A stretch of DNA of 5,771 bases from an uncultured Ruminococcus sp. (GTDB taxonomy: Bacteria; Bacillota; Clostridia; Oscillospirales; Ruminococcaceae): the NCBI GenBank assembly GCA_947177935.1, contig CAMWWG010000072.1, positions 1-5,771 of the forward strand, given 5' to 3'. Position 1 is the first letter of the stretch. The number at the start of each line of letters is the position of its first letter. The notes under the pieces were generated by a model. That model had not been told where the DNA came from and made no database searches. It was given only the letters and a program-made list of their open reading frames with translations. Made by a program: the position numbers and the translations under genes. Shown here one piece after another: positions 1 to 5,771 of the stretch.

Positions 1-513
1 AGAGTCCTGGGCTATCCCTATCCGGGGGGCATACAGATTGACAAGGCATCTCAGATTGGCGACAGTACAAAATACAAGCTCCCACGTCCGAAAGTTGCCG
101 GGAGCGTCCTGGATTGCAGTTTTTCCGGATTGAAAACAGCTGTTATCAATACCGTTCATCATGCGCAACAGACCGGAGAAGAGATCGACGCACCGTCCAT
201 GGCGGCAAGTCTGCAACGGACAGTTGCGGAAATCCTCACAGAGAAAACAGAAATTGCCGCTGAAATGACTGGTTACAGGACAATCGCAATAGCAGGGGGT
301 GTGTCCGCCAATTCCGGCTTACGGGATGCCATGCAGAAAATGTGTCAGTCGCACGGCTACACGCTGTATGCGCCGCCGTTGTCACTATGCGGAGACAATG
401 CCGCTATGATTGCCTGTCAGGGATCTTATAATTATCTGGCAGGGATTACAGCAGATGAGAGTCTGAATGCGTATGCTTCCGGGACACCAATCGGAGAAAT
501 GAAGATTTCATAA
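1..513 (+). CDS. tsaD: TsaD, tRNA N6-threonylcarbamoyladenosine transferase (C-terminal part, cut by the left edge)
   Basis: The frame is open from base 1, so the 170 residues seen are the C-terminal half of a protein usually about 340 long. TsaD (Kae1/Qri7 family, ASKHA fold) transfers the threonylcarbamoyl group from threonylcarbamoyl-AMP to A37 of ANN-decoding tRNAs in the cytoplasm, working with TsaB and TsaE. Visible family motifs are YPGG (residues 7-10), FSGLKTA (41-47), AGGVSANSGLR (98-108) and CGDNAAMIA (130-138). By family knowledge the Asp of the last motif (D132) is a metal ligand; the HxxxH ligands lie upstream of the window. An internal TTG at 130 is not a plausible start because conserved sequence continues in frame before it. 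The gene ends 14 bases before the next ORF and probably shares its terminator. The family call is secure. Confidence 0.96.
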   Translation, partial: RVLGYPYPGGIQIDKASQIGDSTKYKLPRPKVAGSVLDCSFSGLKTAVINTVHHAQQTGEEIDAPSMAASLQRTVAEILTEKTEIAAEMTGYRTIAIAGGVSANSGLRDAMQKMCQSHGYTLYAPPLSLCGDNAAMIACQGSYNYLAGITADESLNAYASGTPIGEMKIS

Positions 514-695: not shown

Positions 696-711
696 AAGAG
701 AATGAAACAAG

Positions 712-752
712 AAATCCCCCTGGGATGGTAACATTCCGGGGGGATTTTTTTT
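712..752 (+). terminator. intrinsic terminator of the tsaD / small-ORF transcript
   Basis: A 16-bp stem (712-727 with 732-747, two G-T wobbles) closes a GTAA tetraloop and runs into eight consecutive T (745-752). It ends the tsaD transcript and insulates pilin gene P1, whose ribosome site starts only about 21 bases later. Confidence 0.92.
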
Positions 753-759
753 GATGTTA

Positions 760-965
760 TATTTATTATTATAAGGAGGTTTTCGCAATGAAAACAAGAA
801 AAGTCAAGGGCTTTACCCTTGTCGAGCTGATCGTTGTCATCGCCATCATCGGCGTACTGGCAGCAATCCTCGTACCGTCCATGCTGGGATATGTGAAGAA
901 GTCCAAGGTTTCCGCTATGAACTCCAACGCAAAGAGCCTGTATGATGCAGTTGCTACTTCTTTGG
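760..965 (+). repeat. constant pilin head, copy 1 (leader plus first ~58 codons of P1)
   Basis: One of three near-identical blocks. Bases 763-802 are identical in all three copies, and 760-810 form a 51-bp perfect inverted repeat with 1927-1977. Over the first 174 coding bases I count 11 differences from copy 2 and 15 from copy 3. Similarity drops sharply after codon 58 (GCT ACT TCT). The upstream limit is also sharp, just after the terminator T-tract. Confidence 0.9.
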
Positions 966-1309
966 TAGAAATGGACTCTGAGGGACTTGTTCTTACTGCT
1001 GCATCAGGTGCAAATAAGGACTATACAGGTGCAACCTATAAGAAAGGCACTACTATTCCTACTTCAAATCCTAGCTCTATCGCTGATGAGGCTAATCTTC
1101 AGTACAAGATTGCCCAGTATTTTGCAGGTGTAAATTCACTCGCTGATTATAGTTTTACGGTTAAGGATATGGCTGTTGTTGGTGCATTTTGCAGTGATGG
1201 TGTTTACAAGGGCGGTCACCCGACAGGCTCTACAACAGATAACTATGCAACCTTTACATTGGCAATGGCTTGTGGTACTACTACTCCTGCTGCTCCTGCT
1301 AGTCCGTGA
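788..1309 (+). CDS. type IV pilin-like major subunit P1 (prepilin with class III signal)
   Basis: A 173-residue prepilin. Residues 1-8 (MKTRKVKG) are a basic class III leader. Prepilin peptidase should cut after Gly8, leaving Phe9 as the N-methylated first residue and Glu13 as the conserved mature Glu5. Residues 9-30 are the hydrophobic N-terminal helix that anchors the subunit in the membrane and packs the pilus core. After the constant head (to about residue 58) the body is unlike P2 and P3 over much of its length, but regains CSDGVY (135-140) and TTDN (149-152). Cys135 and Cys162 could form a D-region disulfide. The tail is TTTPAAPASP. The start has AGGAGG eight bases upstream. No pilus ATPase or platform gene is nearby, so assembly must use factors elsewhere. 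It begins right behind a terminator with no -35 box. Only an extended -10-like TGTTATATT (755-763) is seen, so it may be silent or weakly expressed. Exact role (adhesion, motility or DNA uptake) is unknown. Confidence 0.93.
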   Translation: MKTRKVKGFTLVELIVVIAIIGVLAAILVPSMLGYVKKSKVSAMNSNAKSLYDAVATSLVEMDSEGLVLTAASGANKDYTGATYKKGTTIPTSNPSSIADEANLQYKIAQYFAGVNSLADYSFTVKDMAVVGAFCSDGVYKGGHPTGSTTDNYATFTLAMACGTTTPAAPASP

Positions 1310-1406: not shown

Positions 1407-1949
1407 TTAGAAAGCAGTTGTGCCATCAACAGCATATTTCAATGCGTTCTTAACATCAGCAGCAGCAAAAGTAGATTTGCTAGCATTGTCTGTTGTTGCT
1501 GTCTTTGGATAAGTACCTACATAAGCACCGTCAAAAGTTACAGCACCAGTACCAGCAGAACTTACTACTGAGAAACCAACAGCACTCAATTCTGTAATGC
1601 CATTAAAGTAATTATAAACTTTCCACCAGATATAATCATTTACTACCGCACCGCCTGTAATATCAGATGCTGTAACGTCAGCAGCAGCAGGAGCGGTAGC
1701 TGGTGCTTGATATTTACCAGCAATAGTGTAATCACCAGCTCCAATTGTATGACCTTCGGAATCAATTTCTACAATAGAAGTAGCAACTGCATCATACAGG
1801 CTCTTTGCGTTGGAGTTAGCAGCGGACACCTTGGACTTCTTCACATATCCCAGCATGGACGGCACGAGAATCGCTGCCAGTACGCCGATGATGGCGATAA
1901 CAACGATCAGCTCAACCAGGGTAAAACCCTTGACTTTTCTTGTTTTCAT
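1407..1949 (-). CDS. type IV pilin-like major subunit P2 (the copy with a consensus promoter)
   Basis: A 180-residue prepilin with the same leader and cleavage context as P1 (KG/FTLVE, Glu13) and the same hydrophobic helix (9-30). The frame is open upstream to 2069, but ATG 1949 is chosen because it follows AGGAGG by eight bases and matches the starts of P1 and P3. The body has an Ala/Pro-rich linker (QAPATAPAAA, 81-90), then YIWWKVYNYFNG (106-117) and GTYPKT (145-150), both shared with P3 and not with P1. It contains no cysteine, unlike P1 and P3. It is the only pilin here preceded by a good sigma-A promoter (2060-2088) and a structured leader of about 100 bases, so it is the best candidate for the expressed subunit. 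It is convergent with P1 and divergent from the recombinase gene. Confidence 0.94.
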   Translation of the reverse strand: MKTRKVKGFTLVELIVVIAIIGVLAAILVPSMLGYVKKSKVSAANSNAKSLYDAVATSIVEIDSEGHTIGAGDYTIAGKYQAPATAPAAADVTASDITGGAVVNDYIWWKVYNYFNGITELSAVGFSVVSSAGTGAVTFDGAYVGTYPKTATTDNASKSTFAAADVKNALKYAVDGTTAF

Positions 1950-1977
1950 TGCGAAAACCTCCTTATAATAATAAATA
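1772..1977 (-). repeat. constant pilin head, copy 2 (inverted relative to copies 1 and 3)
   Basis: Leader plus first ~58 codons of P2 on the minus strand. Bases 1935-1974 match the 40 bases common to all copies. Relative to copy 3 I count 14 differences in 174 coding bases, and 11 relative to copy 1. Its orientation makes it an inverted repeat with both other copies, which is the geometry needed for inversion rather than deletion. Confidence 0.9.
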
Positions 1978-1984
1978 AAATATT

Positions 1985-2011
1985 TTGCAATGCACCTGAT
2001 CTGCACTGCAA
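1985..2011 (-). promoter_or_regulatory. leader hairpin in the P2 5' untranslated region
   Basis: Read on the minus strand, TTGCAGTGCA and TGCATTGCAA pair over 10 bp with one G-U wobble around a 7-base loop. It lies in the inferred transcript about 35-60 bases before the P2 start codon. P1 and P3 lack it. It could stabilise the mRNA or act as a regulatory element; no known riboswitch class is recognised. Confidence 0.55.
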
Positions 2012-2059
2012 CCTGGGAATTCACCGCATATTCCGTGCCGGTGTTTTCCTTACAAATAT

Positions 2060-2088
2060 AGTATAGCACACAGGAAAAGTTTTGTCAA
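2060..2088 (-). promoter_or_regulatory. consensus sigma-A promoter for pilin P2
   Basis: On the minus strand there is a perfect TTGACA (2088-2083), a 17-bp spacer and TATACT (2065-2060). Transcription should begin near 2053, giving a leader of about 104 bases to the P2 ATG. A run of ten T (complement of 2098-2107) lies just upstream of the -35 box and could act like an UP element. It is the strongest promoter visible in the window. Confidence 0.88.
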
Positions 2089-2140
2089 TAGATTTCTAAA
2101 AAAAAAACAAACTATGAACGAATTTTTACGAAAGTGAATT

Positions 2141-2154
2141 TGAAAACGTTTTAG
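2141..2154. promoter_or_regulatory. cre/LacI-type operator-like palindrome upstream of the P2 promoter
   Basis: TGAAAACGTTTTAG contains the perfect 10-bp palindrome AAAACGTTTT with a central CG, typical of LacI/GalR-family operators. It matches 12 of 14 positions of the CcpA cre consensus TGWAANCGNTNWCA. Its centre is about 95 bases upstream of the inferred P2 transcription start, a position more consistent with activation than repression. The match is suggestive only. Confidence 0.4.
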
Positions 2155-2427
2155 GTATCCCTTTTTTCGTCAATTTGCACAAAAAATATAAAAACAGCAT
2201 GTATTTTGTTTCGCTAGCAATATCGGCGTAAATTAGAAAAATCCAGAAAAATTCGTTAATCATTTAGACATATATTCCAGCCAGTAAATTGCTGAAATCC
2301 CCTGTTTGCGTCGTTATTCTCCGTCATGATTTGTACACATCTAACGATCCGCCGTCCCATTTCGTTCATAATTTCAAAATCTTTCTGAAATATTTTTTTC
2401 ATCATCTGTCCATAATTTGAATTGCCT

Positions 2428-2464
2428 GAAATCATCCTCTATCTGTCCCCCGGAGGATGATTTC
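2428..2464. promoter_or_regulatory. perfect 12-bp inverted repeat upstream of the recombinase gene
   Basis: GAAATCATCCTC (2428-2439) is perfectly inverted at 2453-2464 with a 13-base spacer containing CCCCC. It abuts the -35 region of the candidate recombinase promoter (extended -10 at 2478-2486). It could be an operator or recombinase binding site. It is followed by only a loose T-rich run, so termination is less likely. Confidence 0.55.
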
Positions 2465-2477
2465 TGTTTGCTTTCTA

Positions 2478-2486
2478 TGCTATGAT
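2478..2486 (+). promoter_or_regulatory. candidate extended -10 promoter for the recombinase gene
   Basis: TGCTATGAT fits the extended -10 form TGnTATAAT with one mismatch in the hexamer. No good -35 box is seen at 16-18 bp. Start of transcription would be near 2493, about 43 bases before the ATG. A weaker alternative is TTGAAT (2417) with TATCTG (2440), inside the inverted repeat. Confidence 0.4.
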
Positions 2487-2535
2487 TATTTCTGCTTTTC
2501 AGCAAAAAAATTTTTTCAGAAAGGATGGTACTTTT

Positions 2536-3504
2536 ATGTATCAGAATTATCAGAAAGGCGAAATCATCACTTACAGGGCATGGCTCAGTATATGGTTGCC
2601 CACCAAAGGAGAATACATCCGGGAATCTACACTTGCCAACTATCAGCAGGCAGTCAGCAAACACATCCTTCCGGCGCTCGGAGATCTTTCCCTTGCCGAA
2701 CTCACAGAACAGAAAGTGCAGGAAACTGTCCTGTTCTGGCTCAAAGAGGGACGCTGTGACGGACAGGGGGGACTTTCTGAACGCACTGTCCGGGGCATGG
2801 TCACATTCATCAAGCTCAGTCTGAAATCCGCCGCCAAAGCAGGATACATCTCCAGAAAAGATTTTGACATCCTGTTTCCGACACAGAATCCGACAGAACA
2901 GGTGCAGACGTTCAGCAAACAGGAACAGGCAATTTTGACACAGTACATCTATCTGCACCTGACACCGAAAAATCTCGGCATTCTGTTGTGTATGCACACA
3001 GGTTTGCGAATTGGTGAATTATGTGCCTTGCAATGGAAAGATATTCACCTCGAATCTCGGACAATCACGGTCAGTAAGACACTGCAAAGAATTTTTCTAC
3101 AAGATACATCTGGCAAGCCCAGTACAAAAATCACAATCACACCGCCGAAAACAAGACATTCCGTCCGGGTAATCCCCATTTCAAGTTTATTATATCCGGT
3201 CTTGAAACATGTCCAGCCGAAAAATCCGGAAATTTATTTGCTTACCGGAAAAACATCCTGGACAGAACCGAGAACCTATCGGGATTATTACAATCGTTTG
3301 CTAAAGAAATTGGAAATTCCGCATGTGAATTTCCATGGACTGCGGCATACATTTGCAACAAGATTAATCGAAAACGGAGCAGACTACAAGACAGTAAGTG
3401 AATTGTTAGGACATGCGTCCGTAACTATCACAATGAATCTGTATGTCCATTCACAAATGGAACAGAAACGCAAAGCTGTGGAACTGTTGAATTTTTACTT
3501 CTAA
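2536..3504 (+). CDS. tyrosine recombinase / site-specific integrase (complete catalytic set)
   Basis: A 322-residue phage-integrase-family protein that would cut and rejoin DNA at specific sites through a 3'-phosphotyrosine link. Residues about 10-105 form a core-binding (SAM-like) domain, and about 125-315 the catalytic domain. The full active site is visible: Arg158 in TGLRIGEL, Lys205 in PPKTRH, His267 and Arg270 in HGLRH, His293 in LGHAS, and nucleophile Tyr303 in NLYVHS. The open frame extends upstream to an ATG at 2482, but ATG 2536 is preferred because AAAGGA lies about ten bases before it. There is no extra N-terminal arm-binding domain as in Tn916-type Int, so its size is closer to Xer, FimB or Rci-like enzymes. 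No excisionase, relaxase, phage or cargo genes accompany it. It sits between divergent pilin genes P2 and P3, suggesting local rearrangement of pilins rather than element mobility. That role is inferred. Confidence 0.95.
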   Translation: MYQNYQKGEIITYRAWLSIWLPTKGEYIRESTLANYQQAVSKHILPALGDLSLAELTEQKVQETVLFWLKEGRCDGQGGLSERTVRGMVTFIKLSLKSAAKAGYISRKDFDILFPTQNPTEQVQTFSKQEQAILTQYIYLHLTPKNLGILLCMHTGLRIGELCALQWKDIHLESRTITVSKTLQRIFLQDTSGKPSTKITITPPKTRHSVRVIPISSLLYPVLKHVQPKNPEIYLLTGKTSWTEPRTYRDYYNRLLKKLEIPHVNFHGLRHTFATRLIENGADYKTVSELLGHASVTITMNLYVHSQMEQKRKAVELLNFYF

Positions 3505-3512
3505 TTCTAATA

Positions 3513-3537
3513 CTCCTTATGTTATTATTATAAGGAG
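3513..3537 (+). promoter_or_regulatory. hairpin masking the P3 ribosome binding site
   Basis: CTCCTTAT (3513-3520) is the exact complement of ATAAGGAG (3530-3537), which contains the P3 Shine-Dalgarno core, with a 9-base loop. In RNA reading through from the recombinase gene, this would hide the ribosome site. The CTCCTTAT arm lies just outside the shared pilin leader and is absent before P1 and P2. Confidence 0.55.
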
Positions 3538-3720
3538 GTTTTCGCAATGAAAACAAGAAAACTCAAGGGGTTTACCCTGGTTGAGCTGATCGTTGTTATC
3601 GCCATTATCGGCGTACTGGCAGCGATTCTCGTACCGTCCATGCTGGGCTATGTCAAGAAGTCCAAGGTATCCGCTATGAACTCCAACGCAAAGTCTCTGT
3701 ACGATGCAGTTGCTACTTCT
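3522..3720 (+). repeat. constant pilin head, copy 3 (leader plus first ~58 codons of P3)
   Basis: Bases 3522-3561 are the 40 identical to copies 1 and 2. The next ~160 bases are about 92% identical, with mostly synonymous differences. It is direct relative to copy 1 and inverted relative to copy 2. Homology upstream stops abruptly at 3522. Confidence 0.9.
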
Positions 3721-4113
3721 CTGGTAGAGTTGGATTCCGAAGGAAATAAAGCAGCTGGTGATAAAACAACCCCCGGTGTTTATGCTCTTACTGCTAAGTA
3801 TGCGGCACCTGCTACGGCACCTGCAGCACCTGCTGCGGCAACGGGTGTTACAGCAGAAGTTGCTGCAGCTCCAACCAACGCTAGTGCATATATTTGGTGG
3901 AAAGTATATAATTACTTCAATGGTATCAAAGATTTGACAAGTGTTGGTTTCAGAGTAGAGAGCATGGCTTGCACTGGTGCAGCTTGCAGTGATGGCGTTT
4001 ACATGGGCACTTATCCGAAGACTACAACAACAGACAACGCTACTAGAGTACTTGCAGTTTCTAAAGACGTGCTTACGTATTCTACTACTGGTACAGACAC
4101 TGACCTCAAATAA
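3547..4113 (+). CDS. type IV pilin-like major subunit P3
   Basis: A 188-residue prepilin, leader MKTRKLKG with cleavage expected before Phe9 and conserved Glu13, then the hydrophobic helix (9-30). The body has a long Ala/Pro-rich linker (KYAAPATAPAAPAAA, about 84-98), IWWKVYNYFNG (116-126) and GTYPKT (154-159) as in P2, but ACTGAACSDGVY (141-152) resembles P1. Cys142 and Cys148 are unmatched in P2. The start has AGGAGG eight bases upstream. It lies 42 bases after the recombinase stop with no -35/-10 promoter between; only an extended -10-like TGTTATTAT (3520-3528) is seen. The ribosome site can be masked by a hairpin. It may be cotranscribed with the recombinase or held silent until rearranged. 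The pilin fold is clear; its adhesive target, if any, is unknown. Confidence 0.93.
   Translation: MKTRKLKGFTLVELIVVIAIIGVLAAILVPSMLGYVKKSKVSAMNSNAKSLYDAVATSLVELDSEGNKAAGDKTTPGVYALTAKYAAPATAPAAPAAATGVTAEVAAAPTNASAYIWWKVYNYFNGIKDLTSVGFRVESMACTGAACSDGVYMGTYPKTTTTDNATRVLAVSKDVLTYSTTGTDTDLK
3805..3846 (+). repeat. in-frame 21-bp tandem repeat in the P3 Ala/Pro linker
   Basis: GCACCTGCTACGGCA (3805-3819) recurs as GCACCTGCTGCGGCA (3826-3840), 14 of 15 identical with a 21-base period, so copy-number change would keep the frame. P2 has one equivalent PATAPAA stretch. Slippage could vary linker length. Confidence 0.6.
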
Positions 4114-4161: not shown

Positions 4162-4179
4162 CGTTATTAAAAGGACTAG

Positions 4180-4218
4180 AAACAGCTCCCAGGATTGCAC
4201 ACGATCCAGGAGCTGTTT
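4180..4218 (-). terminator. terminator of the leftward sigma/anti-sigma/cobO operon
   Basis: A 10-bp outer stem (4180-4189 with 4209-4218) plus an inner GGAT/ATCC stem around an 8-base loop, 18 bases past the cobO stop. T-rich sequence follows on both strands, so it may act bidirectionally. Its outer stem (ACAGCTC...GAGCTGTTTT) resembles the P1/P2 terminator. Confidence 0.75.
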
Positions 4219-4235
4219 TCTATGATTAATTAGTA

Positions 4236-4751
4236 TTAGTATTCAATTCCAAGCCGGGCAGAAATCCCGTTCTGATAAGGATGTTTGATGGCTTTGATTT
4301 CGCTGACATAATCGGCAATATCCATAAATTTCTGTTCCGGGTTGCGTCCGGTCAGCACAAGTTCTATTTCGTCCGGACAGGTGAATACAAGCCGGTTGGC
4401 AAGTTTTTTATCCAATAAATTAGAATGATACGCATGAAAGAATTCATCTAGGATCAGCATCTGTATCGTTCCGGTGTTAATCTGGTCAAGCGTCTCCCGG
4501 AGCATTCTGTTGTGGTCTTCCGTGAGTGCCATTTTTTCCGTGTCATTCATCCGGAACGTGAACCCGTAATTTTTTTGACAGCGCATGACAGAAATTTCCG
4601 GAATTCTGGATAGGATGTCTAATTCTGATGTATGACCGCCTTTGAGAAACTGGACAAACCGGATGTGCATACCACTCCCGGCGGCACGGACAGCCAAACC
4701 AATGGCGGCAGTTGTTTTTCCCTTGCCATCACCGCAATAGATCTGAATCAT
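4236..4751 (-). CDS. cobO: CobO/BtuR-type corrinoid adenosyltransferase
   Basis: A 171-residue P-loop protein of the CobA/CobO/BtuR family, which transfers the 5'-deoxyadenosyl group of ATP to cob(I)alamin or cob(I)yrinic acid a,c-diamide in the cytoplasm, making coenzyme B12 forms. Visible motifs are the family P-loop GDGKGKTTAA (7-16), QFLKGG (34-39), a Walker B-like LILDE (99-103), LTGRNP (133-138), and the C-terminal HPYQNGISARLGIEY (157-171). Length fits the family (about 170-200). ATG 4751 is chosen because it follows AGGAGA by seven bases, gives the usual short N-terminus, and overlaps the upstream stop as ATGA, indicating translational coupling. The longer open frame to 5027 only shadows the anti-sigma gene. 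It is last in an operon with an ECF sigma pair, an uncommon partnership. No other cobalamin genes are in the window, so it may serve salvage. Confidence 0.9.
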   Translation of the reverse strand: MIQIYCGDGKGKTTAAIGLAVRAAGSGMHIRFVQFLKGGHTSELDILSRIPEISVMRCQKNYGFTFRMNDTEKMALTEDHNRMLRETLDQINTGTIQMLILDEFFHAYHSNLLDKKLANRLVFTCPDEIELVLTGRNPEQKFMDIADYVSEIKAIKHPYQNGISARLGIEY

Positions 4752-5137
4752 AAAAATTTCTCCTGATCCCTGCCTTTGTAAGTCAAAAACAGCCCGATTG
4801 TCAGCATGACAGACCCCGCACCGATAACAGCGCTTGTGCCGACCATGCCCCAGAATCTTCGCCGGCGGAGTCTCCGGGATAATGTTTCGCAGAGCCGTTT
4901 TTCTGTTTCCGACAGATCGGAGCAATCCGGCGGGAGCTGTTCCGGGATTTTTTCCGGGAAAATCTGTATCTTGTCCGCAGATTTGTGTTTCTGTAATGCC
5001 TGAAATTCTCGGTAATACTTCCGGCACTGTGTACAGGTTTTCAGATGTGACCGGATGGCATCCGCCGTTTCCGGACTCACAAGATTTTCATGATACAATT
5101 CCGCAAGATCCTTTGCAAAATTACATGTCATATTCAT
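4748..5137 (-). CDS. zinc-finger anti-sigma factor, single-pass membrane protein
   Basis: A 129-residue protein with an N-terminal ZAS-type zinc-binding domain: Cys5, then His31-x3-Cys35-x2-Cys38 (HLKTCTQC). An acidic linker follows, then a basic RRLRRRR cluster (about 88-94) and one hydrophobic segment (about 95-120), ending in a short polar tail. Such proteins bind and hold an ECF sigma factor at the membrane until a signal releases it. The topology predicted here places the zinc finger in the cytoplasm with almost no outer domain, so a redox or membrane cue is as likely as an extracellular ligand. ATG 5137 follows GGAGG by nine bases and overlaps the sigma gene by 17 bases. Its stop overlaps the cobO ATG. 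The partner assignment rests on this overlap. Confidence 0.88.
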   Translation of the reverse strand: MNMTCNFAKDLAELYHENLVSPETADAIRSHLKTCTQCRKYYREFQALQKHKSADKIQIFPEKIPEQLPPDCSDLSETEKRLCETLSRRLRRRRFWGMVGTSAVIGAGSVMLTIGLFLTYKGRDQEKFL

Positions 5138-5630
5138 TCTGAATCGCCTCCAGCATCATTTTTTTTGCCCGATAATAAATTACTCTGGCAGAGTTTTCAC
5201 TGATATGCAGTGCACTGCCGATCTGAGCATAACTCATTTCGGCGTAAATGCGCAGGATCATGACATCCTGGTATTTTTTCGGGAGAGACAGGAGAATTTT
5301 CTTGGCGGATTCCGCCATCAGCTGTCGTTCTATCGTATCTTCGAGTTGTTCACCGGAATCACTGGTAAATGCAGAAATTGTTTCTGTGCTGACTGTTTCC
5401 AGTGCATGTTTATTTTTCCGTAAATAGCGGTAATAAGTATGTTTGCCGATCGAGGCAAGCCATGTAAAGACATCACTGTCGCCACGGAATCTGTGAAACG
5501 AGATGAACGCCTGATAGAATGTTTCCTGCGTGAGTTCTTCGGCAAGATCCCTGCTTTGTGTCAATTTAAAAAGAAACGCATAGATTCGGGGAAAATATTC
5601 CCGATATAAGACTTCAAATTCATGATTCAT
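5121..5630 (-). CDS. ECF-type RNA polymerase sigma factor
   Basis: A 169-residue sigma-70 family protein of extracytoplasmic-function size. Region 2 spans about 8-75 (DLAEELTQETFYQAF, then FTWLASIGKHTYYRYLRK), for core binding and -10 recognition. Region 4 spans about 112-165 (LPKKYQDVMILRIYAEMSYAQIG then ISENSARVIYYRAKK), a helix-turn-helix for the -35 element. The acidic link between them lacks region 3. ATG 5630 is preferred because GAGGTG lies nine bases before it; an in-frame GTG at 5642 would add four residues and is possible. It directs RNA polymerase to a small regulon, probably including its own operon, and should be held by the anti-sigma factor encoded next. Its targets cannot be read from this window. 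Confidence 0.93.
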   Translation of the reverse strand: MNHEFEVLYREYFPRIYAFLFKLTQSRDLAEELTQETFYQAFISFHRFRGDSDVFTWLASIGKHTYYRYLRKNKHALETVSTETISAFTSDSGEQLEDTIERQLMAESAKKILLSLPKKYQDVMILRIYAEMSYAQIGSALHISENSARVIYYRAKKMMLEAIQNEYDM

Positions 5631-5688
5631 GAGCGGAAACACCTCGGCTTTCCGGACTGCATAGATTTTTCGTTAAATTTTACATGCT

Positions 5689-5717
5689 ATTTTAAATAAT
5701 TTATCAGTTTATGTCAG
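5689..5717 (-). promoter_or_regulatory. candidate promoter of the sigma/anti-sigma/cobO operon
   Basis: Minus-strand CTGACA (5717-5712), a 17-bp spacer, and TAAAAT (5694-5689), each five of six matches to the sigma-A consensus. It lies about 60 bases before the sigma ATG. A separate ECF-type autoregulated promoter cannot be excluded. Confidence 0.5.
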
Positions 5718-5771
5718 CCTATACAAAGTTAGTCTCAGAAAATCTGAAAATATTACAAGAAAAGCAATGAT

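Follow-up and report, generated by a model that had tools for sequence, protein, structure and literature searches.

A promoter and recombinase cassette predicted to invert between two type IV pilin-like genes of an uncultured Ruminococcus

In the fim system of Escherichia coli, tyrosine recombinases encoded outside a promoter-only segment of ~300 bp turn chaperone-usher fimbriae on or off. The Hin segment of Salmonella contains its own recombinase gene and has one flagellin operon at it, and in Moraxella bovis pilin DNA inverts beside a fixed promoter through an unrelated, DEDD-type recombinase, Piv. Here we analysed a 5,771-nt stretch of DNA from an uncultured Ruminococcus sp. (the window, which is one entire contig, C72), in which a promoter-like site and a tyrosine recombinase gene lie between the opposed 5' ends, or heads, of two type IV pilin-like genes, P2 and P3, with a third such gene, P1, alongside. 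The source genome is 57.6% complete (1.29 Mb, 251 contigs).

Further details of the described systems bear on this locus. The Hin switch uses a serine recombinase (PMC11868660) and a 966-bp segment (PMC5903667), and inversion of Moraxella bovis pilin genes is announced by the title of Marrs 1988, cited in both papers. Excerpts of PMC5903667 describe a putative invertible segment at a fimbrial locus of Providencia stuartii, 844 bp long, with its own recombinase and 14-bp imperfect repeats. At the vpma locus of Mycoplasma agalactiae and the vsp locus of Mycoplasma bovis, as presented in excerpts of PMC2268961, a tyrosine recombinase (Xer1 or Mbr) adjoins the locus, its proposed sites lie in the conserved 5' untranslated regions of a family of surface lipoprotein genes, and inversion links silent genes to a unique active promoter.

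Judged from its sequence and that of its relatives, the Ruminococcus locus very probably works by a 1.55-kb cassette that carries promoter and recombinase between opposed pilin heads and is predicted to flip, so that its promoter would drive either pilin.

The cassette between the pilin heads

The features of the window are collected in Table 1. A first-pass annotation had proposed an invertible segment at this place, and the arrangement that it described was recovered throughout: the heads of P2 and P3 form an inverted repeat, exactly reverse-complementary over 40 nt, and their likeness extends at 91% across 227 nt (1748-1974 against 3522-3748) before the sequences diverge. By reasoning rather than by a shuffle test, an exact inverted match of 40 nt within 5.8 kb lies far above chance expectation. 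This incomplete assembly contains three full-length copies of the head, all in the window; a fourth match is short and 78% identical. Because the repeat spans the ribosome site and the start codon, exchange inside it leaves the products in frame. In silico, inversion left P2 and P3 unchanged, as had been claimed, and likewise the recombinase, and it transferred the promoter together with its leader from P2 to P3.

Table 1 Features of the 5,771-nt window and the evidence for each.
Feature	Position	Strand	Evidence
Tyrosine recombinase, 322 aa, proposed invertase	2536..3504	+	Pfam PF00589 and PF14659; clade support 100/99
Promoter-like site TTGACA-17-TATACT, TG before the -10, facing P2 (ON end)	2060..2088	-	11/12, best of the window
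P1, type IV pilin-like gene, predicted silent third partner	788..1309	+	Pfam PF07963
P2, type IV pilin-like gene, predicted ON as assembled	1407..1949	-	Pfam PF07963; promoter-like site faces P2
P3, type IV pilin-like gene, predicted OFF	3547..4113	+	Pfam PF07963; upstream promoter match at most 9/12 (300 nt)
Inverted-repeat arm at the P2 head, with ribosome site and start codon; proposed recombination site	1935..1974	-	Exact reverse complement of 3522-3561; perfect run -25..+14 around ATG
Inverted-repeat arm at the P3 head; proposed recombination site	3522..3561	+	Exact reverse complement of 1935-1974
Third head copy, at P1	760..810	+	Equals P2 from -28 to +22 (51 bases) and P3 from -25 to +14 (40 bases)
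Intervening cassette, with promoter, leader of P2, gene for the recombinase and anti-Shine-Dalgarno end	1975..3521		Opposite in strand to the flanks when aligned with G033, G016, G008
Terminator-like hairpin just before the P1 head	709..750	+	19-pair stem, T tail
Predicted hairpin CTCCTTAT...ATAAGGAG masking the P3 ribosome site (OFF end)	3513..3537	+	Predicted Shine-Dalgarno unpaired probability 0.00 against 0.57 for P2

Inverted repeats thus flank both a recombinase gene and a promoter, the latter called by consensus match. Matches were scored out of 12, and 300 nt upstream of each head were examined. The site at 2088-2060 on the minus strand, earlier singled out as the sole consensus pilin promoter and as aimed at P2, was the only one in the window to reach 11/12; the next best, at 10/12, lies upstream of a sigma factor gene. 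A scan of the window returned 16 sites of at least 9/12 against 11.0 (standard deviation 3.5) in shuffled sequences, so that weaker matches carry little meaning. P3 has a single 9/12 match in its 300 nt, and P1 none of at least 9/12. A promoter match of 11/12 or 12/12 stands at the corresponding place in all seven cassette loci, on the side away from the recombinase's end, and on the recombinase side the match was at most 9/12 in 6/6 loci. The P2 leader also holds a 10-pair hairpin between promoter and ribosome site (2011-1985, TTGCAGTGCAGATCAGGTGCATTGCAA), mostly kept in the related genomes G016 and G033.

The recombinase looks intact, in agreement with its earlier description as complete. 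Pfam recognised a SAM-like N-terminal domain (Phage_int_SAM_3) and a Phage_integrase domain and nothing else, so no serine recombinase catalytic domain of the Hin type was among its matches. Arg158, Lys205, His267, Arg270, His293 and Tyr303 were invariant in all eight aligned recombinases, the window's included, and we take these R-K-H-R-H-Y positions to be the catalytic residues of tyrosine recombinases, the class to which the protein belongs by its Phage_integrase domain carrying them. Recombinases of at least 57% identity occurred in 8 of the 61 genomes searched (this one counted), all of one genus; the next in these genomes reached at most 43% over their full length and 47% as fragments. 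The eight formed a single clade among 58 rows (support 100/99), and seven of them have opposed pilin heads on their two sides, the second pilin of G034 being truncated by the contig end just past its head. Among the first 61 protein relatives listed, the longest contig measured 1.1-1.7 kb, about the size of the cassette, in 29 (hand count); assemblies may break at the repeats.

Another reading gives this protein a true role in transposition, as integrase of a small mobile element that came to lie between two pilins by insertion; in our judgement this is extremely unlikely. The nearest solved structures by sequence are indeed 'Int protein' chains (6emy, 6en0 and 6emz), presumably Int from Tn1549, and one of the distant relatives occurs as identical copies in three genomes from two other families, a pattern expected of mobile DNA. 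The cassette, however, has no other recognised gene, its ends are the pilin heads, and all recombinases linked to pilins fall into a single clade, which in the genomes searched was confined to one genus. Matches among viral contigs reached 41-43% at best.

The distant relatives, drawn from the genus and the order, are 32-43% identical to the window's recombinase. Inverted repeats frame 34 of 50 (35 of 51 rows before a double-listed gene was merged), a count made without a shuffle control and with identical genes at some of the places. These repeats are 14-36 nt long, with one arm 224-548 nt upstream and the other 36-88 nt downstream of the gene; at L015-L031 and L246-L268 they resemble TTTTCGTAGAG-N7-CTCTACGAAAA, and some of the distant recombinases adjoin SipW-like signal peptidases. 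Pilin heads were found near none of 22 distant recombinases in a first set of loci (~1.5 kb on each side, less at contig ends), and a pilin, of a different kind, near 1 of 29 in a second. At the pilin heads, TTTTCGCA is similar to the repeats that frame some of the distant recombinases (TTTCGCAAAA in L017, L020 and L022), a likeness that is suggestive only. The distant recombinases are perhaps a wide family of self-flipping cassettes, of which the pilin cassette would be one branch that adopted pilin heads as its repeat.

Repeat limits and orientation in related genomes

In all six complete loci the inverted repeat starts 25 to 27 nt before the ATG, and outside it the stretch from -60 to -31 agrees at merely 6-9 of 30 positions (six complete pairs). 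Its identical length varies: 40 nt in G000, 48 in G016, 42 in G033, 204 in G008, 127 in G004 and 77 in G019. The three bases preceding the ATG differ by genome (GCA, GCT, ACT, ATT, GTT or AAT) and are uniform across all pilin heads within each of the 10 genomes that have at least two; an odd match in G016 is a different protein and no exception among pilin heads. Such concerted triplets suggest recurrent exchange among heads, through inversion or gene conversion. A further candidate, GTTTTC-NNNAT-GAAAAC over the start codon as the crossover core, was set aside as not diagnostic, being found also in one-head genomes without a clade recombinase. Several contigs stop 1-26 nt 5' of a pilin-head ATG (G015:C12, G028:C191, G035:C74 and C51, G024:C190 and C61), as if an unassembled cassette joined there.

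The repeats might instead invert by RecA-dependent homologous recombination between heads of ~200 nt, with the recombinase a passenger or acting elsewhere. The heads are long enough for this (91% over 227 nt here, identical over 204 nt in G008), and a site-specific enzyme has no need of likeness past the start codon. We nevertheless consider it unlikely, given that the perfect stretch is just 40-48 nt in G000, G016 and G033, that seven of the eight clade genomes have the recombinase between opposed heads with the presumed catalytic residues kept in 8/8, and that 34/50 of its distant relatives are likewise framed by inverted repeats.

Comparison of orientation bears more directly on the proposed flip. 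The cassette occupies the same site, between TsaD and CobO, in the window and in G033, G016 and G008, and these three, which are other species, carry the opposite orientation that the first-pass annotation had suggested looking for. Aligned with G033, the flanks of the window (1-513 and 4177-5771) fall on one strand and the core (1789-3746, 88% identity) on the other; G008 has the same opposition, and so has G016 for the sole flank present, 514-752, where its contig ends. The recombinase therefore points toward CobO here and toward the TsaD side in the three relatives. Recombinases 91-92% identical sit in loci of different orientation.

A second landmark is a conserved gene of ~570 aa (L039 4263-5942 and its relatives) that lies behind one pilin in many genomes (36-87% identity among 10 copies compared). 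No copy was found in the window, and three copies tested matched no Pfam family; we guess that it is a glycosyltransferase. The pilin before this gene has a promoter in G033 and G008 and lacks one in G019, G034 and G007; it has one also in G003, G009, G036 and G061, whose fetched loci are free of the recombinase. G019 has a diverged copy of a pilin in between, behind the OFF pilin (L044 5768-6241), and this copy lacks the usual head. The loci of the relatives support a predicted switch, and from this comparison of species we infer inversion.

The same data can be read as inverted duplications, in which the pilins stay alike through gene conversion and selection on the N-terminus and orientation changes are rare, species-level events without a switch. 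A single genome per species was compared, the pilin N-terminus is conserved for protein reasons, and one-head genomes share the leader, all of which suits duplication. We regard it as very unlikely, because the outer limit of the repeat falls at -25 to -27 in non-coding DNA in 6/6 loci, each cassette has one strong promoter match, orientation differs between loci with 91-92% identical recombinases, and the OFF end usually has a predicted ribosome-site mask.

The promoterless end and the third pilin head

Two features go beyond the first-pass annotation, namely a hairpin predicted to mask the ribosome site at the recombinase end and P1 as a third possible partner. The hairpin was examined in 36 heads with distinct upstream sequence of at least 200 nt, 18 with a promoter (18 genomes) and 18 without (12 genomes). 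Results showed an anti-Shine-Dalgarno motif in 14/18 promoterless heads against 0/18 promoter-bearing ones (Fisher p 1.6e-6), and a mean predicted Shine-Dalgarno unpaired probability of 0.10 without and 0.57 with a promoter. Counted per genome, at least one promoterless head had the motif in 10 of 12 (none in G008 and G028). Of 20 other AAGGAGG-bearing frames used as a control, one had the motif, and the mean unpaired probability was 0.50. G004 has TTAAGGAG opposite CTCCTTAA where the others have ATAAGGAG opposite CTCCTTAT, which amounts to one compensating change. The motif stands on most promoterless heads and is absent from promoter heads, which distinguishes an ON from an OFF end of the cassette. 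Inversion in silico shifts the predicted masking from P3 to P2. The CTCCTT...AAGGAG palindrome was also considered as a binding site for the recombinase and rejected, since the predicted loop is 5-13 nt and promoter-side heads lack the palindrome.

These elements would combine as follows. The recombinase would act within the repeat, near the start codon; a flip would give the promoter to one pilin and remove it from the other; and the promoterless end would bring anti-Shine-Dalgarno sequence that folds onto the ribosome site and keeps transcripts running on from the recombinase gene into the OFF pilin from being translated. One flip would act at both ends because recombination would take place inside the shared ribosome-site and start-codon sequence. 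With moderate confidence, we favour this double-ended selector, in which each flip brings a promoter to one pilin and a masking hairpin to the other, and in which added silent heads, P1 here and those of G034 and G007, would form a repertoire for changing the pilus.

P1 shares the head of P2 and P3, which makes a three-way choice possible: P1 and P2 lie tail to tail, and a P1-P2 inversion could swap their bodies. The P1 body is 68% identical to a promoter-bearing pilin of G032, its best match among 35 pilins compared. P1 lacks the anti-Shine-Dalgarno motif but has the strong terminator-like hairpin ahead of it. Larger silent pilin sets occur in G007 (L083, L084) and G034 (L097, L151), with five pilin heads each, most of which have anti-Shine-Dalgarno hairpins and no strong promoter match.

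Several observations weigh against a switch of this kind. One clade recombinase, in G006 (L042), has no pilin head on its 3-kb contig, where another gene is divergent upstream. Within the genus, 24 of 38 genomes have the head motif, and of the 394 in the order sample one does, namely this genome; the motif is also present in genomes without a detected clade recombinase and is therefore not specific to recombination. The heads stay alike well past the start codon, which also suggests gene conversion, and the opposite orientations were observed between species only, one genome per species being compared. One promoterless head of G034 has a 10/12 promoter-like match at -52. The motif set behind the 14/18 count was picked after viewing the sequences, the promoterless heads in it are not independent (four from G034, three from G007), and the motif is missing from promoterless heads of G008 and G028, from one of G007 and from P1. 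Finally, the heads of P1 and P3 are direct repeats, so recombination between them would delete P2 and the cassette.

Apart from the cassette, the window carries the end of a TsaD gene, a 58-aa frame, P1, P2, P3, a CobO-type gene, and genes for a putative zinc-finger protein (anti-sigma-like) and an extracytoplasmic function (ECF)-type sigma factor. The N-terminal methylation motif (N_methyl) exceeds the Pfam cut-off in P1, P2 and P3, the three type IV pilin-like genes. Another contig of the same genome has matches to pilus machinery, namely PilB- and PilT-type ATPases, a PilC-type protein, PilM and a prepilin peptidase; the PilT match exceeds the NCBIfam cut-off and the PilB match falls below it.

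Comparison with described switches

If the proposed switch operates, uncultured species of the Ruminococcus group would replace one type IV pilin body by another through the flip of a single small cassette, and the choice of pilin would be exclusive at transcription and, likely, at translation. The recombination site would be tied to the start codon of the genes that it switches, a design that preserves the reading frame of each product. Members of the wider recombinase family, which often have inverted repeats around them and sometimes lie near genes for surface proteins or secretion, provide a candidate list of further switches. Among the matches listed from open-licence literature (titles and abstract starts), none described a pilin-choosing inversion of promoter and recombinase in Ruminococcus or its relatives.

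The first-pass annotation likened the locus to fim. The likeness is a loose one: it holds in that promoter inversion would control pili, as excerpted for fim in PMC5903667, and breaks down in that the recombinase here lies inside the segment and the outcome would be an either/or choice between two competing genes. In Providencia stuartii the segment likewise encloses a recombinase gene near fimbrial genes, but the excerpted description (PMC5903667) has no paired pilins. As in Moraxella bovis, type IV pilin genes, recognised here by N_methyl, would be switched through inversion; unlike there, promoter and recombinase would themselves move between P2 and P3, and the recombinase is of the tyrosine rather than the Piv type.

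The Salmonella Hin switch is similar in that an invertible segment contains a promoter and its own recombinase and a surface filament protein is switched. It differs from the present locus, where the recombinase is of the tyrosine class, two pilins compete and the repeat covers both start codons. With vpma and vsp, as far as excerpted, the locus shares a tyrosine recombinase, repeats where the genes of a family begin (three heads here) and one promoter (one 11/12 match). Here, by contrast, promoter and recombinase lie inside the P2-P3 segment, the genes are pilin-like and a translational lock is predicted; a P1-P2 inversion would fit the Mycoplasma arrangement of a promoter outside the inverting segment. 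Promoter inversion by a segment's own invertase is already known, and what the Ruminococcus cassette likely adds is its combination with type IV pilins, a repeat over the start codon and a translational lock.

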